A DNA stretch of 64,000 bases from an uncultured Opitutia bacterium (GTDB lineage Bacteria; Verrucomicrobiota; Verrucomicrobiia; Opitutales; UBA953). The stretch is taken from positions 124,001-188,000 of the forward strand of contig CAMFKE010000006.1 of assembly GCA_945957395.1 (NCBI GenBank), in the 5' to 3' direction. The position numbers and the translations under genes were made by a program. Below, piece by piece: positions 9,882 to 24,156 of this stretch; position 1 is the stretch's first letter, and every line of letters begins with the position of its first letter. Under the pieces are notes generated by a model that made no database searches, was not told the DNA's origin, and was given only the letters and a program-made list of their open reading frames with translations.

Positions 9882-9918
9882 AAAAAGAAGCGCCCGGCCC
9901 CTCGCAAGAGGCCGGGCG
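9882..9918 (-). terminator. Intrinsic terminator after the pseudopilin cassettes
   Basis: Eight-base arms at 9892-9899 and 9910-9917 pair perfectly around a 10-base loop, with one extra outer pair (9891/9918). On the minus strand the stem is followed by a T-rich run (complement of 9882-9890). It lies just downstream of the 501-residue protein gene and may also stop the converging flavoprotein transcript. Confidence 0.72.
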
Positions 9919-9945: not shown

Positions 9946-11451
9946 TCAGAGCCCGTACTTGGCCATGTCGGCCTTGTTCTGCGGCTCGATCCAGAAGTCC
10001 ACCGGGTACTTGGCGTCGACCGTGGGCACGGCCGCCAGCGCCAGGTCGTAGTGGAAGAGGCCGCCGCCGTTGATGCTGATATTGAAGGCCTTCACCGAAC
10101 CGAAGAACACGCCGCTCGAACCGCCGCCGCCCATGACAAACGAGGCGAACGGCGCGTCGATGACCCCGCTGAAGGCGCCGTTGCCGGCGATTTTGATGTC
10201 CTGCAGGTCGTTCTTGTTGGTGTTGGTGCCATTGAGCGTGACCTGGGTGGTCATCGTGGACTCGGCCCCGCCGGCGCCGGAGTTCACAATGCCGTTGCCG
10301 GTGAGGGAGACATCGCCGGAGACGAACATCGTGAGGGAGGACACCTTCTTGCCGGTGCTGTTGTCGACGGTGATCTGCCCGTTGCCGCTGGTGGAGATGC
10401 TGTCGGCCACCAGCACGACGGGGCCCCGGACAATCAGACTGCCCTTGGTGAGCTTGAGATCCGTCACCTTGTAGTACTGGGGCGAAGTCGCCGTGAGCGA
10501 ACCGATCGTGATGTTGCCCGACTTGTCGGCCGCCGGAAGGGGCGATGCCGTGGAGGCGTTGTAATCGGCAGGCAACTTCGGCACCGTGAAGTCGGCGGAG
10601 AATCCGGTGCTGGTGCGGTCCGGGTCTACCCCGGCCTTGGGCGAGGTGACCGCCGGGTCATAAACGCCCACATACATGCCGGAAACCGCCTTGTCCAACG
10701 CGGCCTCGCTGCCGCCGCCGATGAGCACACTGCCGTAAATGATGCCGCCGGCATTGGCCGACAGCGGGTCGAATCCATCCTTGGCGATGGCTACGGTACC
10801 CACCGTGACTTTGTCGCTGATGTTCAGCGTGCCATCGGGCAGCTTAGCCCCGTACGGATACAGCACCAAGATGCCGGGGAAGCTGGAGCTGTAGCTGTCC
10901 ACCTTGCTTCCGTTGCCGATGAAAGTCAGCGTGTTCTGCGAGACCAGCCCCTGTCCCGTGCCGTTCACCTGCACGCGCTTGAGCGTCACCAGAATCTGAC
11001 GCGAGTAGGCCGAGGAACCGGAGGCGTCCTTACCCGACATGCCGGCGTCGGCCACGATGTAGGGCGACTTGTTCAGCTCCAGGGCGTCGGTGTTGTTCAG
11101 CGGCAGGTTCTGGATGGTGACACGCAGGCGGGACTTGCGGTTGTTGCCCAGATCCACCTCGCCGAAATCCTTGGAATAACCGGTCGCGCCGGTCTGCTTC
11201 CACCCGGCGGGCCAGGCGGCGCTGTTGAAGCCGCCCTCGCGATACTTGCCGAAGGCGTGCATCGCCTGGTCCACACCCCGCTCAAGAACCGTTTGCAACG
11301 CTTGGTAGGAATGATTGGCCTCGGTGACGCGTCGCACCGAAGTGGTGAGGGCGACGAGCGAGGCCCCGACGGCCGCAAGCATGAGCGCGACGATGAGCGT
11401 CATGGCGATGGCGGATCCGCGGCGCTTCCGGGGAGAGGGGGTGTTTCGCAT
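9946..11451 (-). CDS. PilX-like exported protein (last gene of second pseudopilin cassette)
   Basis: This 501-residue protein begins with basic residues (RKRRGSAIAMT) followed by one hydrophobic helix (LIVALMLAAVGASLVALTT), the pattern of PilX/GspK-like proteins co-encoded with pseudopilins. The rest is Gly/Ser/Thr/Asn-rich and beta-strand-like, with repeated short motifs such as NGQITVDNSTGK and GNGIVNSGAGG, suggesting an extended surface or periplasmic region. No catalytic motif is visible. It follows two prepilin-like genes and mirrors the 831-residue protein of the first cassette in position and N-terminal design. Verrucomicrobial genomes carry multi-gene cassettes of this kind (the Verru_Chthon families), but I could not verify membership. 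Confidence 0.75.
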   Translation of the reverse strand: MRNTPSPRKRRGSAIAMTLIVALMLAAVGASLVALTTSVRRVTEANHSYQALQTVLERGVDQAMHAFGKYREGGFNSAAWPAGWKQTGATGYSKDFGEVDLGNNRKSRLRVTIQNLPLNNTDALELNKSPYIVADAGMSGKDASGSSAYSRQILVTLKRVQVNGTGQGLVSQNTLTFIGNGSKVDSYSSSFPGILVLYPYGAKLPDGTLNISDKVTVGTVAIAKDGFDPLSANAGGIIYGSVLIGGGSEAALDKAVSGMYVGVYDPAVTSPKAGVDPDRTSTGFSADFTVPKLPADYNASTASPLPAADKSGNITIGSLTATSPQYYKVTDLKLTKGSLIVRGPVVLVADSISTSGNGQITVDNSTGKKVSSLTMFVSGDVSLTGNGIVNSGAGGAESTMTTQVTLNGTNTNKNDLQDIKIAGNGAFSGVIDAPFASFVMGGGGSSGVFFGSVKAFNISINGGGLFHYDLALAAVPTVDAKYPVDFWIEPQNKADMAKYGL

Positions 11452-11515
11452 GGCTTGTTCTCTTGGGGGTTGGGTAGGGTTGCCGAAAACCTTTCGGCGA
11501 AAGGGAGGTCGCCGA

Positions 11516-12137
11516 TCAGAGACGCGAACCGGGCTTGCTGCGCATGACCACGACGGCCGACACCAGGAAGTCGGTGTTCGCCAAACCGGCGAAGGAGCGC
11601 TGGAGCGTCCCGGAGAGCATCACTTTCTTCACCGAGGCGGTGGTCGGCGCTATATTGTCGTCGGTGTCGAAGTAGCCCAGGCGGAACGAGCGCACATTCT
11701 CCAGCATCACGGTGCAATTCCTGTCAGGCCCTGTGCCGGAGGCGCCCGCGGGGCTCTGGCGATACACCCCGGCCGTCTTTCCAGAAAAAATAGCGCACCG
11801 TGACCTCGGCGCCGGGGCTCGGAGGGTTTTTGGACCAATCCAGCACGGTCGGCACGACACTCACGGTGACCTCGTCCGAATTCATCAAGGCAACCTTGGA
11901 GGCCATGCGCATGTCCTTGTCGAATCGGGTGAGCACGCGCCGGCTGTACTCGTTCATGTCCGAGTAGTTGGTGACGGACACCCCCAGCTTGGCTTGGGCG
12001 ACCACGACGCTCAGCACCAGGGCGGCCATCACGACGAATATCGAGGAGGCGAGCAGCACCTCCACGAGCGTGAAGGCCCGGCGCCCCGCGACGGCGCGGT
12101 TACTGGCGGGCGATGAAGATGGAGTCATTGAGGCCAT
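11516..12137 (-). pseudogene. Prepilin-type (GspJ/PulJ-like) protein with an apparent frameshift
   Basis: The frame starts MASMTPSSS (or three codons later) and has a class III-type leader ending RRAFTLVEVLL followed by a hydrophobic helix, so it is a substrate for prepilin peptidase. It stays coding-like to about residue 125 (VTVRYFFWKDGR), then turns into Arg-rich non-coding-like sequence. A different frame immediately takes over with YRQSPAGASGTG and runs to the end at 11516 (SFAGLANTDFLVSAVVVM). The switch occurs in or next to a GGGG run near 11760-11775. Joined, the product would be about 206 residues, a normal size. It overlaps the preceding prepilin gene by about 30 bases. It could be a sequencing error, a real pseudogene or recoding. 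Confidence 0.7.
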
Positions 12138-12735
12138 TTTTGGAGACCGTGGAGGAGTAGGATCGCGAGTGGGTGGCCTTGCGCGAGTCCACCCAGGAGA
12201 CGGTGAGCACGATTTCGGCGGACTCCCCGGAGGCGTCGGGGATGAACCTGCGCGTGCAGGTGAAACCGTTGGCGTTGCGAAACTGAAGCGTCGTGGCGCC
12301 CAGCACATCCGTGGACAGGGCCGGCTGGGCGGAGCCCGGAGCCACATCCCCGCCCCGGTAATCGGCGAACGGGGTGAAGGTCGAGTAGCCGGCGGCGTTG
12401 TCGCAAAGGTACTTCACGCTGTGCTGGCCCTTGCCCGCAGCGTCGGCCGACCCGGACCAGCTGCGCAGGCGCATCGCCTCCATCTCGTGCGTAAGAATCT
12501 GCGACACCTGCGTGAAGGCGCGCGTCTGGTCCATGGTGCGAAGGCCGAACAGCAAGAGCGAGTAGGCGCCCAGGACGGCGATGGCGAAAATGAACATGGA
12601 CACCATCACCTCCACCAAGGTCATCGCCCGTCGCGGCCGGCGCACGCGGTTCAGGGCGCCCTGCGGAGCGGGAAAGGCGGCGGGGCTGCAGGCGCGAATG
12701 GGTCGACAATAGGAGTCTCGAAAGGCGAGGCGCAT
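12100..12735 (-). CDS. Prepilin-type N-terminal cleavage domain protein (first gene of second cassette)
   Basis: A 211-residue pseudopilin. After a basic N-terminal stretch the leader reads RRPRRAMTLVEVMVSM, followed by a hydrophobic helix (FIFAIAVLGAYSLLLFGL). The residue after the cleavage point is Met rather than the usual Phe, and Ala replaces Gly before it, both tolerated in minor pseudopilins. The globular part contains TLQFRNANGFTCTRRFIP and ends LNDSIFIARQ. The start MRLAFRDSY was chosen because sequence further upstream is C-rich and non-coding-like. The stop overlaps the start of the next prepilin gene, indicating coupled translation. Confidence 0.83.
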   Translation of the reverse strand: MRLAFRDSYCRPIRACSPAAFPAPQGALNRVRRPRRAMTLVEVMVSMFIFAIAVLGAYSLLLFGLRTMDQTRAFTQVSQILTHEMEAMRLRSWSGSADAAGKGQHSVKYLCDNAAGYSTFTPFADYRGGDVAPGSAQPALSTDVLGATTLQFRNANGFTCTRRFIPDASGESAEIVLTVSWVDSRKATHSRSYSSTVSKNGLNDSIFIARQ

Positions 12736-13044
12736 GGCGGCGGGAGAGGGGGGGGCGTCGGGGATAGTCCGTAAAAAAGACTTACCACCAAAGAGCCGGG
12801 TAACCAGCCCAGCCGAGACAAACCTGCAACACGAACGGCGCTTCACAAAAAAATAACAAACAAACCCTTCCTCGGGGAACCAGCAGCGCCCCAAAAGAAC
12901 CCCATGCACGAACAAAATAACCCTACGAAGAAGCAGACTCCTCTGGCATCAAACCCATAAACAGGCAAAAGACTTACACAAAAGCCCCCCCCCCTTCGCT
13001 TTCGACGCAAAGGAGGGGAGAGGGACAAAGAAACCCTAAAACAG
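12736..13044. other. 309-base intergenic spacer between the two pseudopilin cassettes
   Basis: The spacer is notably rich in A and C on the plus strand and poorer in G+C than the flanking housekeeping genes. It holds the terminator of the upstream cassette (12979-13018) and presumably a promoter for the downstream one, although I cannot point to convincing -35 and -10 boxes. No plausible short coding frame or RNA gene was seen in it. Confidence 0.6.
12979..13018 (-). terminator. Intrinsic terminator of the first pseudopilin cassette
   Basis: Read on the minus strand, arms complementary to 13007-13018 and 12988-12999 form a 12-base stem with two G-U pairs and a 7-base loop. After the stem there are a few more G/C bases and then TTTTG. 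It sits 27 bases past the stop of the 831-residue protein. Confidence 0.6.
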
Positions 13045-15540
13045 TCACTTATTCCCAACAACGCCTATCCATGCATCAACCGTATTGGGGCCTGACTTTA
13101 TCAACTCATACTCCTGCTTCGTTATCACAAACTGGCGCATTCTACGAAAACTTGATATCGTTGGAGAAGCCGGAGGCATTTTTCCGGCTTTAAGCAGGCT
13201 GGAATAACCCAAAGTTCTCGCGGGCGCGACATAGTAGTTATTAAAAGACCCTGCAGGCGCCTTAAAATAACGAGACTTATAGATACCAATAACGGAGCCA
13301 CGCATACGAAGAGTATCCGAGCTCGTACTGAAAGGCTGAAGATACGAGAGCAGCGTATGAATACCCTTGTTTGAATTATCATCATCGCCCACGATAAACG
13401 CGGCACTAAGCTCCATCACCCTGGCCCCCGGGGTAAGCCTGTTGCCGGGATCGCGCTGATATTGATAATGTCCATTTGTCCTCACACCGCTGCTCGTACC
13501 TGTACCATCCAGAGCGAAAGCAGAGGATGAATACCTTGGCCCCGTGAAAGGCCAGGCGTTATAAATTGAGGAGCTCATACCCGAAGGCTTAGTACTCGGA
13601 CGCGGAACATATAAATCCAAATCATAGCTGCTGTTAGAAAAATCTGAGCTGAGAACAACGTTCTTATCCGAAAACACTGCCGCGGGGATTTTTGAGGTGG
13701 AACCTGTCACCGTCGATTGATCGTCCTGAAGGGAGGTTGTCCCGGTGGCGAGATTTCCATCGGAATTAAGACTTCCGACGGTGTATGTGCCTGTGTTTGT
13801 CGCCAAAGTGAATCCAGGGTCGCCAACCAAGGAACCGGGCACGGTTGTCGCATTTTTTATGCGAACCCCCGTCAGACCTGATAAGTCATTGCTGGCGCTT
13901 CCATCCCAAGACTGGGCTGTACCTGTAATATTAAGGGAAGGCAAAGGAACCTTCAAGGCCGACTCGGGAGTCACAGCAACAGAAGGCTTCTTCGTTAGCG
14001 CATCGATATAATTCCCCGTGGCCTTATCCCTGACGGGCGCACTAAGCCTCTTCGAAGGATTCTGAACATCGACGTACATGACTCCATTCCAGCCCGTGGT
14101 ACCACTTGAACTCCAAACGCCTCCGTTCGCCAGAGGCACGGCCCCTGAGGCCAGCACAGAGTTAAGGGACCCCAAGTCCACATCGACCATGGCGACAGTG
14201 GCCTTCTGCTGCGAATCATATATGGCACCCCTGGCCAGATCCGTGTTTTTAGAGGGAGTCACATAATCCGTACCACCATCGTTATAACGCTCCACATAGG
14301 GTGTCTGAACAAACCCAGCAGCAACAGAAGGCGCCACATACTTCGAACCGTTTTGAGCCTTCCATGCGACCTTGTCTGATGCCGCCTTGTAGGACTCCGC
14401 TGCGGCTTGGCCCACAAAGACAGTAACAGCCCCTGACTCCTCAACATATGTGTATAGCTTAGCCTGATACGCGGTCTTTGCCATCTCTGCAATTCGCGCA
14501 TCAGCGTATTGCGCGTCCGTGGAATTCCGAAGCTCAGGATTCGGCGGATCAATTCGCCGATTATTGGAAATCTTGAATCTTTCTGGAATGCCTGAATTGG
14601 CAGAGTCATCAACATAATTCAGACCATCGAGCTCGACCATCGGCCCCCCGACAGCTCCGGTCTTCAGAAACCCTTTGGTGTCATTGAGCATGAAATTATT
14701 GAAAGACATGCCGTCGGAGCTCTCACGAAGCACGGAAGTTCCTGGCTTCAGAAGATCAACACGCCTGGGTGCCCCACCTGAAGTAAGAGTGCCGTCGGTG
14801 ATCATAAACCGGCCGGCATAGGTGCTTCCAGAGAAATCAAAATCACCGGGCGTAAACACAGTGCTATCCATGTAAACCGTACTGGAGTGATTTTTGCTTT
14901 CAAAATACACACCTATATTAGACTGAATTGGGCCATCCAAAACGATATTGGACCCAGGATTTGTCACCCTAAACTTGGATACATCAAAAAACGCGAGATA
15001 ATTGAACACACTGAACTGCCGGCGCTCGACAACCAGGCACGCATATTCCTCAATAAGCTTTGAGACGTCGGAAGGATCGCGAACCGCAGATTTGGAAGCA
15101 ATAAGAAGAAGATCCCGGTACACATTCTTATCCCTCAAGTCGTCATTGCGATTAACCGGTGCGTTGGGATTTATATAAAATCTTTTTGCCAATCCTGCGG
15201 AATCGACAATTCGAGTGAGTGGGGTCGCATACACCTCCTGAGCCCCCTCGACGACCAAAGAGCCATCTCGAGATTCCTGAGAAAAAATCGCCCCGGGCGC
15301 GACCACCAAACCTTCTGGAACAAGCCTGGGATTGGCCTGCGCCTGAGAGGCGGCATAGTTGAGCAAGACATCGGTCGATTTCTTCAACTCGGCAATCGCG
15401 TCATTCCTGCGCACCAACTTCATTTCAGAAGTCACCAGCGATAGCATCGTGGCGCACAATACGGACACGACCAGCAGGACCATAAGCACAACCAGCAGGG
15501 CATAACCTCTGCAAACTTTGATTTTCATATGTGTATTCAT
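13045..15540 (-). CDS. Large PilX/Verru_Chthon-A-like exported protein (last gene of first pseudopilin cassette)
   Basis: This 831-residue protein starts with a short basic region (MKIKVCRGYALLV) and one long hydrophobic helix (VLMVLLVVSVLCATML), then a charged helix, as in PilX/GspK-like proteins. The remaining 750 or so residues are Ser/Thr/Asn/Gly-rich with beta-strand-like segments and no recognisable enzyme motif. A Shine-Dalgarno-like AGGAG lies about 10 bases upstream of the ATG, unusual in this window, and only one base separates its start from the stop of the previous pseudopilin. G+C is visibly lower than in most of the window (47% and 57% on two 60-base lines counted). Size and position match proteins known as Verru_Chthon cassette protein A, but this is from memory. 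Confidence 0.72.
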   Translation of the reverse strand: MNTHMKIKVCRGYALLVVLMVLLVVSVLCATMLSLVTSEMKLVRRNDAIAELKKSTDVLLNYAASQAQANPRLVPEGLVVAPGAIFSQESRDGSLVVEGAQEVYATPLTRIVDSAGLAKRFYINPNAPVNRNDDLRDKNVYRDLLLIASKSAVRDPSDVSKLIEEYACLVVERRQFSVFNYLAFFDVSKFRVTNPGSNIVLDGPIQSNIGVYFESKNHSSTVYMDSTVFTPGDFDFSGSTYAGRFMITDGTLTSGGAPRRVDLLKPGTSVLRESSDGMSFNNFMLNDTKGFLKTGAVGGPMVELDGLNYVDDSANSGIPERFKISNNRRIDPPNPELRNSTDAQYADARIAEMAKTAYQAKLYTYVEESGAVTVFVGQAAAESYKAASDKVAWKAQNGSKYVAPSVAAGFVQTPYVERYNDGGTDYVTPSKNTDLARGAIYDSQQKATVAMVDVDLGSLNSVLASGAVPLANGGVWSSSGTTGWNGVMYVDVQNPSKRLSAPVRDKATGNYIDALTKKPSVAVTPESALKVPLPSLNITGTAQSWDGSASNDLSGLTGVRIKNATTVPGSLVGDPGFTLATNTGTYTVGSLNSDGNLATGTTSLQDDQSTVTGSTSKIPAAVFSDKNVVLSSDFSNSSYDLDLYVPRPSTKPSGMSSSIYNAWPFTGPRYSSSAFALDGTGTSSGVRTNGHYQYQRDPGNRLTPGARVMELSAAFIVGDDDNSNKGIHTLLSYLQPFSTSSDTLRMRGSVIGIYKSRYFKAPAGSFNNYYVAPARTLGYSSLLKAGKMPPASPTISSFRRMRQFVITKQEYELIKSGPNTVDAWIGVVGNK

Positions 15541-15541
15541 A

Positions 15542-16312
15542 TCAATTACTCCTAGGAACGATGGTTAAGTTAAATGCAGTTTGACTTTCGTACCCCAAAA
15601 CGGCACTCCCTGCCGATGAAGTAGAGCGCAAGACAAAACCGGACACCAGAAACGCAGGGGAATTGTTCGTTTTTGTCATATTATAGAACATGCTTCTTCC
15701 CGCCCCCATGGTGTCGTCAATCGCCCCCATTGAATAGTTTGCCAGAACAGGGCAGTTAAGTCTAAAAGACTCCGGAGGCAGGAGCGCCTCAATCGCAAAA
15801 TTTTCTCCTGAATTGGGGATTGGAACTTGCGCGGGATTACTTGCGGAGAAGGATTGCCCCCAATTGTGAACTTCGGAATCAAACCACCTCACGGGGGTTT
15901 TAACATCACCCGGATTCTCCCTGAAAAATCCCATAATCCTGGATACGCGCTGATAGTTTGGATCCTCCTTTATGCCCTTAAGGCTGAAAAATACAAACAC
16001 AACAAAATCGCCGGCGCCCCCAACCGGAACCTGATTCGACGACAGCTTTCTATCCGCGGCATTAAAACTCGGATAAATATAAAACCCATTCGACATACAC
16101 CCCTGATCCACCATCACTCGCTTCATCCTCCTGTATTCCTCGCTTACGGAGGTCTTGATGTCGGAAACGACATACAACCTTAGTACAGCCAGCAGGACAA
16201 GCAGGGACATTCCTGAGATAAGAACGGAGACCCCCAAGGAAATCTCCAGCTCCGCCAGAGTAAACGCCTTACGAATGCAATTAAAAGGCTTGAAATGAAA
16301 TACATTACTCAT
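15542..16312 (-). CDS. Prepilin-type N-terminal cleavage domain protein (middle gene of first cassette)
   Basis: This 256-residue pseudopilin has a 16-residue leader ending in RKA, followed by FTLAELEISLGVSVLISGMSL. The Glu at position 5 after the cleavage point, required for pilin assembly, is present. A long amphipathic helix follows (VSDIKTSVSEEYRRMKRVMV), as in GspJ-like minor pseudopilins. Its start codon overlaps the stop of the preceding pseudopilin (ATGA), showing tight coupling. It occupies the same place as the frameshifted GspJ-like gene of the second cassette. Base composition is low in G+C compared with the flanking genes. Confidence 0.82.
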   Translation of the reverse strand: MSNVFHFKPFNCIRKAFTLAELEISLGVSVLISGMSLLVLLAVLRLYVVSDIKTSVSEEYRRMKRVMVDQGCMSNGFYIYPSFNAADRKLSSNQVPVGGAGDFVVFVFFSLKGIKEDPNYQRVSRIMGFFRENPGDVKTPVRWFDSEVHNWGQSFSASNPAQVPIPNSGENFAIEALLPPESFRLNCPVLANYSMGAIDDTMGAGRSMFYNMTKTNNSPAFLVSGFVLRSTSSAGSAVLGYESQTAFNLTIVPRSN

Positions 16313-16857
16313 TGATAGAACCTCGGAATGAATGTTTTCACGACCCGAACCCTGTAGTCTGTAGAAGGATTGGCTCGGAATCGATAAAAGAGCTCCACGC
16401 TTACTCCATTGGCAAAGTTCGAATCGGCCACGGGGTTCATATGAACCTTAACCTCCATATCCATCGGATAACTCTCAGAGATCTTAAAGGAGGGTGACAG
16501 TCTTGAAGCTATCGCCACGCCATCAAGACGCGTATAGGAGGCGGAGTTTACAGGAACCTCTTGAGACACCTGCCCTCCAAGGTCACCGGAAACAGTCGGA
16601 GGCTCATAATGAACAAAAGAAAGTGTCTTCAGTCCCGATTTATCCGCAGCAGAGGGTGCCAAAACCGAGTCATAAGGCATTGATCGCACCTGTTCCATCA
16701 TGCCGTCTGCAATCTGCAGAGCGACATCATTGGCGACATTGCTAATGGAAGTCTTGTGCATGTATCCCGCCATACCCAGAACGCCCAGCAGGGAAAATCC
16801 GAATATGGCTGCCGCAACCATGACTTCGACCAAGGTGAATCCGATTCGAAGCTTCAT
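16309..16857 (-). CDS. Prepilin-type N-terminal cleavage domain protein (first gene of first cassette)
   Basis: A 182-residue GspI/PilV-like pseudopilin with a very short leader: MKLRIG then FTLVEVMVAAAIFGFSLLG, with the conserved Glu5. The start MKLRIGFTLVE gives the minimal leader expected; a longer in-frame reading adds 28 residues that look non-coding. The globular part shows VEVKVHMNPV-like beta segments (EVKVHMNPVADSN) and ends VVKTFIPRFYQ. It begins the low-G+C three-gene unit and overlaps the next gene by four bases. An 87-base gap follows the end of msrA upstream on the same strand, so this cassette could share its transcript or have its own promoter there. Confidence 0.82.
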   Translation of the reverse strand: MKLRIGFTLVEVMVAAAIFGFSLLGVLGMAGYMHKTSISNVANDVALQIADGMMEQVRSMPYDSVLAPSAADKSGLKTLSFVHYEPPTVSGDLGGQVSQEVPVNSASYTRLDGVAIASRLSPSFKISESYPMDMEVKVHMNPVADSNFANGVSVELFYRFRANPSTDYRVRVVKTFIPRFYQ

Positions 16858-18408: not shown

Positions 18409-20520
18409 TCAGAAGCGCACCTCGACGCCCGCGTAGGCGGAGGGGCCGTCGGCCGGACGGAACACCGCCTGGTCGGCACCGCCGGCATCGGCGAGGGTGG
18501 CCAGGGTGGGCGAATAGCGCTCGTCGGTCAGGTTGCGTCCCTCGACGAACACGCGCGCGCCCTTTTTCCAGCGATAGCCGGTCTGCACGCCGAGAACCGC
18601 ATAGGCGGGCGCCTTGTAGGTGTTCGCGCTGTCGATGTAGGGGCTCGTGGCCAGTTCGACATTCGGGCCGACGTAGAAGCCGCACCGGTGCTCGAACATC
18701 AGCTCCACGCGGTGCCGGTAGCGGGAGGCGCCGGGCAGCCGGTTGTCCGCATACACGGCGTCGCGCTGGAAACGGTGGTCGGCGAAATTGCCCGTGTTGC
18801 GCAGCAGCAGGCGCGTGCGCGGCGCCCCGTCGCCGACGGAGCCGCCCTCGGGAAGCTCGCTTAGCAGTTCGAAGTCGAGGCCCATCTCGATGCCGCGATG
18901 CACGGTCTCATCCGCGTTGAGCGTGGTGAAATCGGTGGCCAGCGGGCCGGTGGAATAGGTCATGAACTCGCCCTTCACCAGCGAGTAGTACGGCACGACC
19001 TCCCAGCGCAGGCGACGGCGCTCGCCGCGCAGCCCGAGCTCGGCGGTCCAGGCCCGCTGAGCGTCGAGGTTGTCCGGCATCGCGGAACGGAGGGTCTTGA
19101 ACTGGGCGAAGGTGGGCGCCTCGTAGCTGCGGCTGAGGTTGGCGAAGAGCGCCGTGGTCCGGTCGAACTCGTGGCGCACGCCGACCTTGGGGTTGAAGCC
19201 CGCATACGCCTTGGAACGGTCCTCGGCCGCGCCGCGCCCGAAGGTGTAGTTGAGTTCGCGCGAAGTCCACACGCCCTGCGCCCCCACGGTCACGGCCTCG
19301 CGCCGCGTGACATAGTAGTCCTGCTCGCCGAAAAGCTCGACCGTGTCGGCATGCTGGAACGACGCCTCGCGCTTCGCACCCCGCACGGCGGTGCCGGGCA
19401 GCGGGCGAAACCGGTTGTCGTCCACCACGCCGGTGGAAAGGTTGAAACCGGCGGTCGAGGTGGCGCGCCGGCCGTCCCAATCCCCGTCGTGGCGGACGAC
19501 GCCGTGCAGCGACGCGATGTTGGTGACCTTGTCGGTCACCGGATCGCCGTGCTCGTCGAGGTCGCGGTAGTAGTATCCGGCGGAAAGCTCGGCGCGGGTG
19601 TATTCATTAAAGAACGACAAGGTGTCGGCGACGCGGCCGAGGCGATAGGCCCGGTAGGTCTTGTAAAGCTCGGCCGCGGGCGCGGCGGACTCCGGCGAAT
19701 TTTCCAGAACGGCGCGGGTCACGTCGCCCGGCGTCTGCGCGAAGAAATCGGTGAAGCCGGCGAACACGCGATTCTCCACGCCCTCCGCGAGCTTGGCGCC
19801 CGCGTTCACATTCACGCGATGCGCGTTCGAGGCGGAGTTCTCGCGAAAACCGTCGGCTTGCGCGTAGGAGTAGGCCCCGTAGCCGTCGAGCGCCCCCGAG
19901 GCCCCGCCGGCGGCGACGAAGCCCTTGGCGTAGCCGAACGACCCGCCCATGCCCACCAGCGTGAGACCGGGCGAGGTGCGCCCCGTGCGGGATATCAGGT
20001 TGATCGCGCCGCCGAGAGCGCCGGCGCCGTAGCGCAGGGCGTTGGCGCCACGCCAGACCTCGACGCCTTCGAGCGCCTGCGGGTCGATGAGCGACATCTC
20101 CATGAGCCCGTCGGCCTGGTTGAGCGGAACACCGTCCTGCAGCACGACGACGCCGCGACCGTTGCCGGTCTTGTCGCTCAGGCCGGATCCGCGGATGGAC
20201 ACCCGGGTGGTGTCGGGCGTGCCTCGCGTGTCCGCATCGACGCCCACCTGGCCGCGCAGCATGTCGGAGAACCCGGGCAGCGGCGCCCTCGCAAGGTCGG
20301 CGGCGGACACGACATTCACGCCGCCGTTGACCCGCGCGAGCCGCTCGCGGGACTCCGCCATGGGAGCCTCCTCCGGCTTGGGTTCGGCGACGGGCGCCGC
20401 CGCCGACACGACGACCGGCGGCAGAGTCGAGGGCTCGCCCGCGAGTGAAAACGCCGGGCCCAGGGAGGCGGCTGCCGCGAGAAGCGCGTGGCGGGAAAGG
20501 CTGAGCGAAAGGTGCCGCAT
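18409..20520 (-). CDS. TonB-dependent outer-membrane receptor (internal start within composite frame)
   Basis: Starting at the internal ATG at 20520 gives a 703-residue receptor with its own signal peptide (MRHLSLSLSRHALLAAA, cleaved near SLAGEP). A plug domain follows with FSDMLRGQVGVDADTRG, RVSIRGSGLSDK, VVVLQDGVPLNQADG and IDPQALEGVEVWRGANAL. The beta-barrel ends EGRNLTDERYSPTL and finally AGVEVRF with the terminal Phe expected for outer-membrane insertion. Length and domain order match siderophore/vitamin/oligosaccharide receptors; the ligand is not identifiable. Pairing with a secreted BNR/LamG protein hints at uptake of a glycan or protein breakdown product, as inference. A terminator follows the stop. 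Confidence 0.9.
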   Translation of the reverse strand: MRHLSLSLSRHALLAAAASLGPAFSLAGEPSTLPPVVVSAAAPVAEPKPEEAPMAESRERLARVNGGVNVVSAADLARAPLPGFSDMLRGQVGVDADTRGTPDTTRVSIRGSGLSDKTGNGRGVVVLQDGVPLNQADGLMEMSLIDPQALEGVEVWRGANALRYGAGALGGAINLISRTGRTSPGLTLVGMGGSFGYAKGFVAAGGASGALDGYGAYSYAQADGFRENSASNAHRVNVNAGAKLAEGVENRVFAGFTDFFAQTPGDVTRAVLENSPESAAPAAELYKTYRAYRLGRVADTLSFFNEYTRAELSAGYYYRDLDEHGDPVTDKVTNIASLHGVVRHDGDWDGRRATSTAGFNLSTGVVDDNRFRPLPGTAVRGAKREASFQHADTVELFGEQDYYVTRREAVTVGAQGVWTSRELNYTFGRGAAEDRSKAYAGFNPKVGVRHEFDRTTALFANLSRSYEAPTFAQFKTLRSAMPDNLDAQRAWTAELGLRGERRRLRWEVVPYYSLVKGEFMTYSTGPLATDFTTLNADETVHRGIEMGLDFELLSELPEGGSVGDGAPRTRLLLRNTGNFADHRFQRDAVYADNRLPGASRYRHRVELMFEHRCGFYVGPNVELATSPYIDSANTYKAPAYAVLGVQTGYRWKKGARVFVEGRNLTDERYSPTLATLADAGGADQAVFRPADGPSAYAGVEVRF

Positions 20521-23500
20521 GAACGAACGGGGGGATGCCGGGAGGGCGCGGCGCAAAGGCGGAACCAACGCACAATGCGGCGCGCGCCGCCACGACTCGG
20601 CGCCGAAAACGCCCCCGGCGGTTTCCTCACCGGAAGCGGGCGCGGGGCGGTCGGAGGGCACGGTCTCCACCGGATCGTCCACCGGGCGGCCGAGCACCTG
20701 CGCGTTCTGCGCGGCGTAGCGCTCGTCGAGCTCGGGATTGGGCACGCGTTCCAGGTCCATCAGCGACTGCAGCCTGCGCTTGCCGACGGCGCCCTTGAGG
20801 TCGGCGAGCGCCTCGCCGTTGCGGAAGGCCAGGGTCTTCACGGCCGCTCCGATGCGGTCGGTGGCCTTCTCGGAGGCGGCGGAGCCGACGGACATGGAGT
20901 GACCGAGCACCGGGTCCACATGCAGCACGGGGTCCGGCGAGCCGTCGAACTGGAAGTACGCGAGCAGCCCGCGCTCGGCCTTGGTGAGCGGTTTCGCGGC
21001 GAGCGACCGGACGCCGGCGGGCGGCACGGCGGCGGCCCACAGCGTGACCTCGTCGACCGTGCCGGTCCAGCCGCAGGAGCCGTCGGCGAGGCCGCCGAGG
21101 CTGAGCATGTCGCCGGGCGCGAAGTCGAAGGACTTGGCGCCGTAGTTGCGCGAGGCGGCCTCGGCGCCGTTGATGTAGACGGTGGCCTTGCCGGCGTCGA
21201 ACACGCACGCCAGGTGCGCCCACTTGCCGGGCTCCAGCCTGGCGCCCGTGTTGGCGCCCCAGCCGTCGCCGTTGACGCTCACGCGCACCGAGCCGTCGGC
21301 CTGGATGAACACGCGGGCGTGGCCCTTCTTGCCGTCCAGCGAGAGAGCGGCGCGCAGGCCGTCGCCCTTGGCGCGCTCGTCGGGCTTGACCCAGGCGGAG
21401 AGGGTGAGCGCGGGGCCGGAGGCGGGGGCGAGCAGCGTGGTGTGCAGGGCGCCGGGCTCCTTGAAGCAGAGGGCGTCGCCGGGCCCCTTGGAGAACCGGG
21501 CCCTCACGGTGCCCAGACGGGCGGTGGTGCGGGAGGACCAGGAAAGGGTCTTGCCGTCGGGCGTGAGGATGGAGAGCTGAGCGCCGTAGGTGCCGGGGTT
21601 GGCGTAGGCGACCTCGACATTCTCGCCCTCGGCGGTCGCGGGCGCGCCGCCGGGGAAGCTCCAGCGGAACTTGGAGCCGGCGGGAGCGGAGGAGACGTCG
21701 AAATACTTCACCTTGAACGGCCCGCGCTGGGCGTACTGCACGGGCGTGTCCACACGCACCGAGGTGAACGGCTTCGAGGGCTCGGCGAGCGTGCGCTCGA
21801 AGAAGCCCTTGTTGGACGCCACGCGCACGAGCCCCTGCGCCGGCGCCACCTTCACATACGAATTCATGTTCGTGCGCGGGAGGCCGTCGGAAAGGTTTTT
21901 CCAATCCTGCATGTCGGCGTTGAGGTAGGCCACGCGGGAGGCGGTGATGGCGTAGACGCCGGCGCGGGTGCCCGGCTGGCACTCCAGGTCGCGCACGGGT
22001 CCGTCGCCGCGGATGTCGTCGCCGTAGAGCGAGCCGGTCACATCGGTCCAGGTCTTGCCGTCGTCGACGGAGCGCAGCACGAAGCCCTTCTGCGAGCCGC
22101 GGTTGGCGGAGCCGGCGAGGTAGAGGGTCTTCGCGTCGGACTGGTCGGCGGCGACGAGGCGGATGCCGTAGGAGGTCTTGTTCCAGGGCGTCTCCTTGCC
22201 GTCGATGAGCACGGACTTGGGCGTGACCTCGGCCCATTCGCCGCCGAGGTAGCGGGTGAGCCAGGCGCGACCGCCCTCGGTGAGCAGGATGAAGCCCGGC
22301 ACGCAGTGAGCGGTCGTGCAGTCCACGATCATGCTGTTGAACCGGCGCAGCGAGCGCTCGTCGGACTTGTCGTTGAACACGACGAGGTCGCACTTGCCGC
22401 CCTCGCGGCGGCGGTATCCGTAAAGGGCATACGCGCGGGTGGCGTCGAAGGGCGTGGCCCAGCTCCAGAAGAGCTCGCCGGCGAAACCGTAGGAGCGGAT
22501 GGCGCCGGCCGGCTTGGGCTCGCCGGGCCTGGGGATGAACTTGGCCACGCGCCAGGGGCCGTACACGACATACTTGTCGGCCGGGTTCACATAGCACTGC
22601 GAGGCGTCGCCGCCGCCGATGTTGAGCCACTCGTCGCCCCAGTGTTCGGCGTGCTTCACATGCACCGGGCCGTGGTTGCAGGCCACGATCATGACGCCCG
22701 GGTCGCGCCAGGCGTGGTCGTAGCCCCAGGTCTCCACACCGGTGATGCCGCGGGAGATGAGGCGCATGTGCGCCATGCGGTCGTCGGAGAAGAGCAGCTG
22801 GCCGTCGTTGCCGAACCAGGCCTTCTCGCCGCGCACGATGGCCTGCTGGAAGTCGCCGTGCACGGCGTACTCGTCGGTGTTTCCGGGCGCCTGCATCTCG
22901 CTCTTCCCGCGCAGGCCGGGCAGGGTTTTCTGCTGCTGGGTGAAGTAGTACTGCCAGGTCTTGCCGCCGTCGAAGGTCATCCAGGGCGCGTAGGCGCCGG
23001 CGACCATGACATCCGGGTTGGTGTCGGAGGTGTCGAACCACATGTCCCACACGCCCTGGTGCAGGGAGCTTTCGGCCTTGAACCAATCGAGGGTGGAGCC
23101 GCCCACGAGGTTGGGCCGCTCGGGCGTGGGCAGCTGCACGTCGTGCTCGTCGCTCCAGATGTCCCGGAAGGTCTTGCCGGCGTCGTCGGAGATCCAAAGG
23201 CCCTTCACGCCGCGCAGCGGGTTGTCGTTCTTCTTGGCCTCCGCGTCGGTCAGGCGGTCGGCGACGATCTTGTCCCTGGTGCTCTTCTTGTCGTCGATGC
23301 GCAGGTGGTAGTTGGAGCCGAAGCCCATGACCACGACGCGGTCGGGCTTGGTGCGGCAGACGCCGAGGTAGAGGATGTTGACGAACTTGCCCTTGCGGCC
23401 GGCGTACTCGACGGGGAAGTTTTGGGTGATTTTCGTCCAGGTCTTGCCGCCGTCGTCGGAGCGGTGGAAATCGCTCCAGTCGCCGCCCATCCAGGGGTTG

Positions 23501-24156
23501 GGGTATTTGGAGCAGGTGGCGTAAAGGATGTCGGGGTTCTTGGGGTGCAGGCGCACGGAGTCCGCCGGCATGTCCGAGAGCCTGCGCCAGGTGGCGCCGG
23601 CATCGTCGGAGCGGAACAGTCCGGTGTCGGTCCCGAGGTACACCACGCGGCCGTCGCCGGAGCAATCGACGGTCACGCGGTGCGAGGTGTAACCGCCGGC
23701 AGGATACTCGGCGGAGCGGTCGATGGTCCGGTCGGCCAGCTTCTTCCAAGTGCGACCGCCGTCCTCGGACTTCATGACGCCGTGGGTGCCGGCGGCGTAG
23801 ACGACGGAGGGCTTGTCGTGGGCGAAGCGGATGGAGCGATGGGTGTTGAGGCCCTCCACATCCCAATCCACATTCTTCCAGGTCTTGCCGGCGTCCTCGG
23901 AGAGCCACAGGCCGCCGATCTGCGTCGAGGTCAGGATGCGGTCGTTGTCGGAAGGGTCCACGGAGACCCCGATGAAAACGCCCATGGCGCCGCCGTGCCC
24001 GTCCACCCATTTCGCGAAGCCCACATTGCGCCAGGGGGACTGCGACAAGGTCGGGATAAGGCCCGGAGGAGGATTCGCGACCGGGGCCGGGGCGGCGAGG
24101 GCGGCCCCCGCGAGGAAAAGCGGAGAAAGGATGACCGGAACGAAACGATGAAGCAT
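18409..24156 (-). CDS. 1915-codon composite frame: secreted BNR-repeat/LamG protein running into a TonB-dependent receptor
   Basis: The frame opens with a signal peptide (MLHRFVPVILSPLFLAGAALA). Many Asp-box BNR motifs follow, for example LWLSEDAGKTW, VMKSEDGGRTW, LFRSDDAGATW, FHRSDDGGKTW and VLRSVDDGKTW, predicting one or two beta-propellers as in sortilin-like proteins and GH74-type enzymes. A PKD-like segment and a LamG-type domain (ALTLSAWVKPDE, GKWAHLACVFD, DEVTLWAAAV) come next, to about residue 1110. After residue 1175 the sequence looks non-coding, and at residue 1213 a new signal peptide and a complete TonB receptor begin in the same frame. No stop codon separates them. Catalytic residues of GH74 could not be assigned. 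Normally these would be two genes; the fused frame may reflect a lost stop or a sequencing error. Confidence 0.75.
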   Translation of the reverse strand: MLHRFVPVILSPLFLAGAALAAPAPVANPPPGLIPTLSQSPWRNVGFAKWVDGHGGAMGVFIGVSVDPSDNDRILTSTQIGGLWLSEDAGKTWKNVDWDVEGLNTHRSIRFAHDKPSVVYAAGTHGVMKSEDGGRTWKKLADRTIDRSAEYPAGGYTSHRVTVDCSGDGRVVYLGTDTGLFRSDDAGATWRRLSDMPADSVRLHPKNPDILYATCSKYPNPWMGGDWSDFHRSDDGGKTWTKITQNFPVEYAGRKGKFVNILYLGVCRTKPDRVVVMGFGSNYHLRIDDKKSTRDKIVADRLTDAEAKKNDNPLRGVKGLWISDDAGKTFRDIWSDEHDVQLPTPERPNLVGGSTLDWFKAESSLHQGVWDMWFDTSDTNPDVMVAGAYAPWMTFDGGKTWQYYFTQQQKTLPGLRGKSEMQAPGNTDEYAVHGDFQQAIVRGEKAWFGNDGQLLFSDDRMAHMRLISRGITGVETWGYDHAWRDPGVMIVACNHGPVHVKHAEHWGDEWLNIGGGDASQCYVNPADKYVVYGPWRVAKFIPRPGEPKPAGAIRSYGFAGELFWSWATPFDATRAYALYGYRRREGGKCDLVVFNDKSDERSLRRFNSMIVDCTTAHCVPGFILLTEGGRAWLTRYLGGEWAEVTPKSVLIDGKETPWNKTSYGIRLVAADQSDAKTLYLAGSANRGSQKGFVLRSVDDGKTWTDVTGSLYGDDIRGDGPVRDLECQPGTRAGVYAITASRVAYLNADMQDWKNLSDGLPRTNMNSYVKVAPAQGLVRVASNKGFFERTLAEPSKPFTSVRVDTPVQYAQRGPFKVKYFDVSSAPAGSKFRWSFPGGAPATAEGENVEVAYANPGTYGAQLSILTPDGKTLSWSSRTTARLGTVRARFSKGPGDALCFKEPGALHTTLLAPASGPALTLSAWVKPDERAKGDGLRAALSLDGKKGHARVFIQADGSVRVSVNGDGWGANTGARLEPGKWAHLACVFDAGKATVYINGAEAASRNYGAKSFDFAPGDMLSLGGLADGSCGWTGTVDEVTLWAAAVPPAGVRSLAAKPLTKAERGLLAYFQFDGSPDPVLHVDPVLGHSMSVGSAASEKATDRIGAAVKTLAFRNGEALADLKGAVGKRRLQSLMDLERVPNPELDERYAAQNAQVLGRPVDDPVETVPSDRPAPASGEETAGGVFGAESWRRAPHCALVPPLRRALPASPRSFMRHLSLSLSRHALLAAAASLGPAFSLAGEPSTLPPVVVSAAAPVAEPKPEEAPMAESRERLARVNGGVNVVSAADLARAPLPGFSDMLRGQVGVDADTRGTPDTTRVSIRGSGLSDKTGNGRGVVVLQDGVPLNQADGLMEMSLIDPQALEGVEVWRGANALRYGAGALGGAINLISRTGRTSPGLTLVGMGGSFGYAKGFVAAGGASGALDGYGAYSYAQADGFRENSASNAHRVNVNAGAKLAEGVENRVFAGFTDFFAQTPGDVTRAVLENSPESAAPAAELYKTYRAYRLGRVADTLSFFNEYTRAELSAGYYYRDLDEHGDPVTDKVTNIASLHGVVRHDGDWDGRRATSTAGFNLSTGVVDDNRFRPLPGTAVRGAKREASFQHADTVELFGEQDYYVTRREAVTVGAQGVWTSRELNYTFGRGAAEDRSKAYAGFNPKVGVRHEFDRTTALFANLSRSYEAPTFAQFKTLRSAMPDNLDAQRAWTAELGLRGERRRLRWEVVPYYSLVKGEFMTYSTGPLATDFTTLNADETVHRGIEMGLDFELLSELPEGGSVGDGAPRTRLLLRNTGNFADHRFQRDAVYADNRLPGASRYRHRVELMFEHRCGFYVGPNVELATSPYIDSANTYKAPAYAVLGVQTGYRWKKGARVFVEGRNLTDERYSPTLATLADAGGADQAVFRPADGPSAYAGVEVRF

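Follow-up and report, generated by a model that had tools for sequence, protein, structure and literature searches.

Two unlike three-gene cassettes for candidate tip pilins stand in tandem in an Opitutales genome

We analyzed a 64-kb stretch of DNA (hereafter the window; positions 124,001 to 188,000 of contig CAMFKE010000006.1, GenBank assembly GCA_945957395.1) from an uncultured Opitutia bacterium of the order Opitutales and found in it two adjacent cassettes, I and II, of type IV pilin-like genes. The six genes all lie on the minus strand within 9946-16857, and each trio encodes, in transcription order, a GspI/PilV-like prepilin, a GspJ-like prepilin and a giant GspK/PilX-like pilin (K1 in cassette I and K2 in cassette II). 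The two trios are real and of unlike types, candidate tip-pilin cassettes new to annotation, and one of them was probably acquired. Minor pilins are thought to give a single pilus machine different jobs through exchange of its tip, and to our knowledge few natural sets of alternative pilus tips have been recognized. We favor, as moderately probable, a model in which each cassette encodes an I/J/giant-K tip-initiation complex with a large β-rich (solenoid) domain that serves the housekeeping type IV pilus.

Both cassettes are compact sets of prepilin-like genes. In cassette I, gene 1 (16309-16857, 182 residues) scores with the models PilV (30.1 bits), gspI (25.6 bits) and N_methyl (26.2 bits) and carries the prepilin site RIG^FTLVE, and gene 2 (15542-16312, 256 residues) carries the site RKA^FTLAE; both have glutamate at position 5 (Glu5). 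Gene 2 alone has no match in the profile libraries, and it can be aligned with 19 J genes that lie upstream of K1 in relatives. The K1 gene (13045-15540, 831 residues) has the site CRG^YALLV, followed by a hydrophobic helix without Glu5. Genes 1 and 2 overlap as ATGA, a single base separates genes 2 and 3, and an AGGAG Shine-Dalgarno motif (15549-15553, minus strand) stands ahead of the 831-residue gene. Cassette II begins with a PilV/GspI-like prepilin gene (12100-12735, 211 residues; PilV 35.9 bits, N_methyl 32.2 bits) with the site RRA^MTLVE, continues with a GspJ-like gene with the site RRA^FTLVE, in which a library search found the type IV pilin motif, and ends with the K2 gene (9946-11451, 501 residues). 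Both small prepilins again have Glu5, and K2 has the site RRG^SAIAM followed by a hydrophobic helix that lacks it. A separate terminator-like hairpin follows each cassette (minus strand; 12985-13021 with 15 pairs, 9 of them G-C, after cassette I, and 9891-9918 with 12 pairs, 10 of them G-C, after cassette II), so the two are probably separate transcription units. A preliminary description of this DNA had proposed two trios in the order I-like, J-like and large protein; its coordinates, the ATGA overlap, the one-base gap and the Shine-Dalgarno motif hold, and the prepilin sites and library scores agree with the family likenesses that it gave.

The two cassettes are of different types and are not copies of each other. 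The genome (2.79 Mb in 14 contigs) holds one further copy of each type on another contig, C4, about 24 kb apart (type II trio at 140005-142871, type I trio at 166176-170367), and similarity runs within each type: K2 and its C4 paralogue are 33% identical over 551 columns (E = 6e-51), K1 and its paralogue 26% over 545 (E = 2e-19) and the type II first genes 41% over 198. When type I was compared with type II, the score was confined to the N-terminal stretch, and profile-profile comparison of the two families aligned the N-terminal 66 (K), 65 (J) and 72 (I) columns and nothing beyond. Since similarity lies within the type and not within the pair, any common ancestry of the cassettes goes back no further than the pilin superfamily can show. 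Tandem duplication of one cassette was therefore rejected: each is closer to its C4 paralogue, and the types share just the generic N-terminal pilin helix. The preliminary description had derived both from one ancestral cassette; recent duplication of such an ancestor does not fit kin that are nearest on C4 and a cross-type alignment limited to 65-72 N-terminal columns. It had also named, as grounds for giving up this descent, the case in which corresponding genes belong to unrelated families, and this is what the sequences of the large proteins indicate outside the helix that they share. The K2 tree pairs the window gene with its C4 paralogue as sisters (support 100/100). The K1 tree does not place the donor of cassette I, because the window gene and its paralogue form very long branches that join.

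Base composition points to acquisition of cassette I. The reference was 293 kb of the same genome, which is not a random sample, read in 3-kb windows (mean G+C fraction 0.661, standard deviation [SD] 0.039). Cassette I has a G+C fraction of 0.475-0.505 (about 0.53 at third codon positions, GC3), about 4 SD under the sampled mean, and cassette II has 0.63-0.66 (GC3 0.85-0.88); this contrast of about 50% versus 64% bears out the difference described earlier. In the relatives, K genes differ little from their surroundings (gene minus flank in 69 genes: mean -0.009, SD 0.023, extreme -0.077), and the earlier suggestion of a foreign composition for cassette I is upheld. On C4 the pattern is reversed, with the type I copy at 0.60-0.63 (GC3 about 0.8) and the type II copy at 0.46-0.54 (GC3 0.54-0.59). 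Composition is thus no marker of cassette type, since each type has one GC-rich and one GC-poor copy in this genome; cassette I and the C4 type II copy are the two that look foreign. We consider a relative of lower G+C content the probable source of cassette I.

Both types extend across the order. Single-sequence searches with K1 and K2 found no relatives among 78 genomes of the bacterium's own family. Across 273 genomes of the order, two-row profiles detected K1 in 52 and K2 in 58, with neither of them in other genera of that family. A ten-row K1 profile, in which the window protein is one row, had matches in 56 of the 388 phylum genomes searched, mostly within the order, and scanning named genomes yielded 77 loci, including loci in Cerasicoccus, Coraliomargarita, Pelagicoccus, Opitutus, Cephaloticoccus and Rariglobus. 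The cassette form is conserved: at least two prepilin genes lie directly upstream of K1 in 70 of the 75 genes with enough upstream DNA, the remainder being mostly second copies in tandem or incomplete genes, and the N-termini of K1 relatives read K/R-G^S-A-L, without Glu5. On these gene counts, type I is an order-wide cassette family.

The tandem arrangement itself recurs. At least 5 kb of downstream DNA is available for 56 K1 genes, and in four of them K2 follows within 5 kb on the same strand, namely in the window and in loci L107, L108 and L131, together in three families; K2 lies upstream on the same strand in none of the 56, and in one locus (L115) K1 and K2 are divergent. Because the tandem is seen in several families, it is a recurrent arrangement and not a mark of duplication, and the combination of a foreign-looking cassette I with a native cassette II suggests that the tandem may have formed anew here. 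Tandem K1-K1 cassettes occur in five loci of other Opitutales (L111, L113, L130, L133 and L162), so cassette multiplication is common.

The predicted fold of K1 links cassette I to a known pilin with a receptor function. The AlphaFold2 model of the window protein, built from 69 sequences (predicted local distance difference test [pLDDT] 77.9, predicted template modeling score [pTM] 0.80), has a helix at residues 13-69 followed by a β-rich body, and the PDB entry that it matches best is 6qvi, ComZ of Thermus thermophilus: Foldseek gave E = 7.3e-5 with a probability of 0.99, and the Z score is 13.6 over 368 residues, compared with 4.5 for the next row. In ComZ, a GspK-like pilin with glycine at position 5, a β-solenoid is inserted in the sheet; the protein binds the GspI-like pilin PilA2 and DNA, its gene lies beside pilA1-pilA2-pilA3, and its position at the pilus tip was argued from the structure (PMC6561018). 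K1 would likewise be a giant GspK-like pilin with a pilin stalk and a large inserted β-solenoid, although the domain placement in the model is uncertain; it lacks Glu5, and a small GspI-like pilin gene adjoins it. In contrast to ComZ, K1 is longer (831 versus about 554 residues), its domains are placed differently in the model, no sequence similarity between the two was found and it is accompanied by two prepilin genes rather than three. Sequence searches of the PDB with the K1, K2, I and J profiles returned no specific relative beyond pilin helices. Homology to RntA/RntB was also considered, and the paper concerned supplied no link.

A second link leads to the Hps proteins, pseudopilin-related proteins of cyanobacterial hormogonia (PMC6495340, PMC4284469). 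Among ten K1 relatives, nine match HpsA (best E = 2.4e-18), three GspK and two PilX_N; HpsC is matched by five of 20 J rows (the window J gene and the J genes of 19 relatives), and one I relative matches HpsB. These likenesses to HpsA-HpsD of filamentous cyanobacteria stay far below the NCBI cutoff: against 400 bits for HpsA (NF038301, a model of 1503 positions), a relative reaches 59 bits and the paralogue in the same genome 24.5, and the window K1 has no match. They nonetheless raise the alternative that the trios serve pilus-linked polysaccharide export, as is thought for hpsA-D and hormogonium polysaccharide in Nostoc. We regard this as quite improbable, because the match to HpsA is absent in the window protein itself, no glycosyltransferase gene lies within or between the trios, whereas the hps locus includes glycosyltransferases, and the role of HpsA is itself unproven (it is a "hypothetical membrane protein" in PMC6495340).

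K2 belongs to a different family, marked by DUF7305 (PF23981), which covers residues 312-474 and scores 50.3 bits against a gathering cutoff of 27. All 13 K2 members have this domain, and four of the 13 also have an ice-binding-like adhesive domain. A model from a six-row alignment gave no Foldseek match at E = 0.001; VIA-align matched residues 283-487 of this weak model to β-solenoids (Z = 9-11), among them the ice-binding protein FfIBP (Z = 9.3), and it matched the model to the pilin FimA with Z = 6.3. FfIBP is, according to the authors of the ComZ structure, the closest relative of the ComZ solenoid (PMC6561018). With low confidence, the DUF7305 part of K2 may be modeled as a β-solenoid like that of ice-binding proteins.

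Neither cassette reaches the cutoffs of the Verru_Chthon or GspI/J/K models. Likeness to the Verru_Chthon genes (TIGR02596 and TIGR02598-02600) lies in the association of verrucomicrobial prepilins with a large protein, and the preliminary description had seen in the pair a duplicated form of these cassettes. That comparison fails: against Verru_Chthon A (TIGR02600, cutoff 332.3 bits) K1 scores 16.6 bits over model positions 1-59 only and K2 has no match, the best scores against B (TIGR02598, cutoff 51.4) and C (TIGR02599, cutoff 256.5) are 21.9 bits, from cassette II gene 1, and 11.4 bits, and D (TIGR02596) found no match among the scanned proteins. Membership was rejected, since models A-C stay below their cutoffs and the fourth gene is absent; each cassette has two prepilin open reading frames and three proteins where Verru_Chthon has four, and the similarity is restricted to the region of the N-terminal helix. 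The GspI-GspJ-GspK tip trimer is closer in gene order, prepilin signals and a K protein without Glu5, a trait common to GspK, PilX and ComZ. It differs in that K here is a giant with a β-rich body, the NCBIfam cutoffs are all missed (gspI 25.6 of 44.35 bits, gspJ 14.4 of 64.85, GspK 14.2 of 130) and no Gsp machinery cluster lies alongside. Modular pilins such as PilB of Streptococcus sanguinis and CofB also carry a bulky module on a pilin stalk and are proposed to sit at the tip (PMC8179133), but their modules are different ones, and here two partner prepilins are nearly always present in the cassette.

The products of the cassettes would work with machinery encoded elsewhere, as the preliminary description had anticipated. 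The 64-kb window contains no secretion ATPase, secretin or prepilin peptidase gene; ATPases are encoded on contigs C1, C4, C5, C9 and C10, secretins on C3, C4, C5 and C10, the single prepilin peptidase on C1 and ComEC on C3. Type II secretion-like clusters lie on C10 and C4, each with its own prepilin set, and the pilus machine on C9 is for this reason the likelier user of the cassettes. The same observation bears on the alternative that the trios are minor pseudopilins of type II secretion, capping the pseudopilus while K selects the secreted substrate. The I-J-K order, the GspI- and GspK-like scores and the two secretion clusters in the genome would suit such a role, which we nonetheless consider unlikely: both clusters are already supplied with adjacent prepilins, the GspI/J/K models are all below cutoff, and the K proteins, with 501-913 residues and β-rich bodies, are unlike GspK with its α-domain.

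We thus return to the tip-initiation complex of a type IV pilus, a model that builds on the gene content established here, the conserved order, the lack of Glu5, the family assignments, the predicted K1 fold and the location of the machinery. In this model, the prepilin peptidase would cleave all three products of each cassette, and the giant K, which lacks Glu5, would be the first and outermost subunit. The I-like and J-like pilins would seat K on the growing fiber, which the housekeeping machine (ATPases, platform protein and secretins, encoded on other contigs) would push through the secretin, so that the solenoid of K is displayed at the pilus tip. K1 (ComZ/HpsA-like) and K2 (DUF7305) would then be two exchangeable tip types, made from separate transcription units. 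The position at the tip and use by a type IV pilus rather than by type II secretion are what we infer from these features, and the tip might bind DNA, as ComZ does, polysaccharide or a surface.

Several points weigh against this model. The superposition of K1 on ComZ has an overall root-mean-square deviation of 10.6 Å and TM-scores of 0.23-0.36, values which suggest that the domains of the two proteins are arranged differently or that the model predicts their arrangement poorly; no sequence search ties K1 to ComZ, and the tie to HpsA runs through relatives and not through the window protein. The K2 model is poor (pLDDT 50, pTM 0.41). In this assembly a frameshift interrupts the middle gene of cassette II, and the frame that carries the prepilin signal stops at 11724. 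Finally, the production of the proteins, their assembly and the filament that they join are predictions from gene sequence.

The broken gene also raises the question whether the cassettes are in working order. The 5' part (11724-12128, minus strand) reaches a break at about 11757-11773 and then a stop, and the 3' part (11516-11763, minus strand), in another frame, shares homology with the final part of the C4 paralogue (39% over 85 residues); the intact gene of about 206 residues in the preliminary description must therefore be given up. An independent coding-frame scan put the break at 11773. A stricter scan missed it and the laxer one found it among about 50 switches, most of which are ordinary gene junctions, so the scan alone is no gauge of the assembly error rate. 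The two pieces were compared separately, and neither type II J gene was mended. The J gene of the C4 type II paralogue (at about 142.2 kb; 13649-14260 of locus L013) has no in-frame start codon, the only nearby ATG being in another frame, directly before a C8 run. Both type II J genes are thus out of frame at or near single-base runs, and assembly errors in homopolymers are most simply the cause, although pseudogenes or phase variation may account for them instead. Three G/C runs of at least 8 bases lie in or beside the cassettes: a G8/C8 run at 12748-12755, just 5' of cassette II gene 1, a C/G10 run at 12985-12994, within the hairpin after cassette I, and the run at 14215-14222 of L013. Such runs are rare across the 293 kb of genome read.

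Taken further, these breaks could mean that the locus is a decaying remnant, with cassette I a foreign insertion and cassette II a set of pseudogenes, neither of them working. The broken reading frame in the J gene of cassette II and the missing start beside the C8 run in its C4 counterpart would fit such decay. We hold this to be very unlikely, since the remaining five genes have uninterrupted frames of 182-831 codons, their overlaps and terminators are normal, and both breaks are at or near single-base runs, where assembly errors are common.

If the tip-pilin model is correct, compact three-gene tip cassettes of at least two unlike types are kept across an entire order of bacteria, and a genome often has more than one. 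The predicted links from K1 to ComZ, a DNA receptor, and from K1 relatives to HpsA make a common class of solenoid tips testable in the culturable Cerasicoccus, Coraliomargarita and Pelagicoccus. A broader and more speculative proposal, which we rate as unlikely, is that Opitutales have an exchangeable-tip system in which at least two types of I-J-K cassette duplicate, move from genome to genome, stand in tandem and may switch through slippage of homopolymers that lie within or ahead of the small pilin genes, with ComZ, HpsA and K1 forming one superfamily of solenoid tip pilins. Should this hold, HpsA, whose function in cyanobacterial motility is unknown, would gain a structure and a place.

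The flanks of the cassettes are ordinary, with an MsrA-like gene on the upstream side and, downstream, a gene for a flavoprotein-like oxidoreductase, both named from their translations alone. Elsewhere in the window, an open frame of 1915 residues (18409-24156, minus strand) runs from a sialidase-like repeat protein into a TonB-dependent-receptor-like protein with no stop between them; two genes are probably merged here, through loss of a stop or an error of the assembly. Further candidate pilin loci lie on other contigs. Three open reading frames of 1247-1389 residues on C2 (373583-379113) have N-termini that weakly match the Verru_Chthon A helix and are possibly more giant pilins, and four further prepilin genes of chromosomal G+C content on the same contig (314575-317921, locus L022) have no large K gene directly after them. 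On C4, a 1302-residue open reading frame with a G+C fraction of 0.52 (305229-309137, locus L018) forms another GC-poor island beside a type II secretion cluster.

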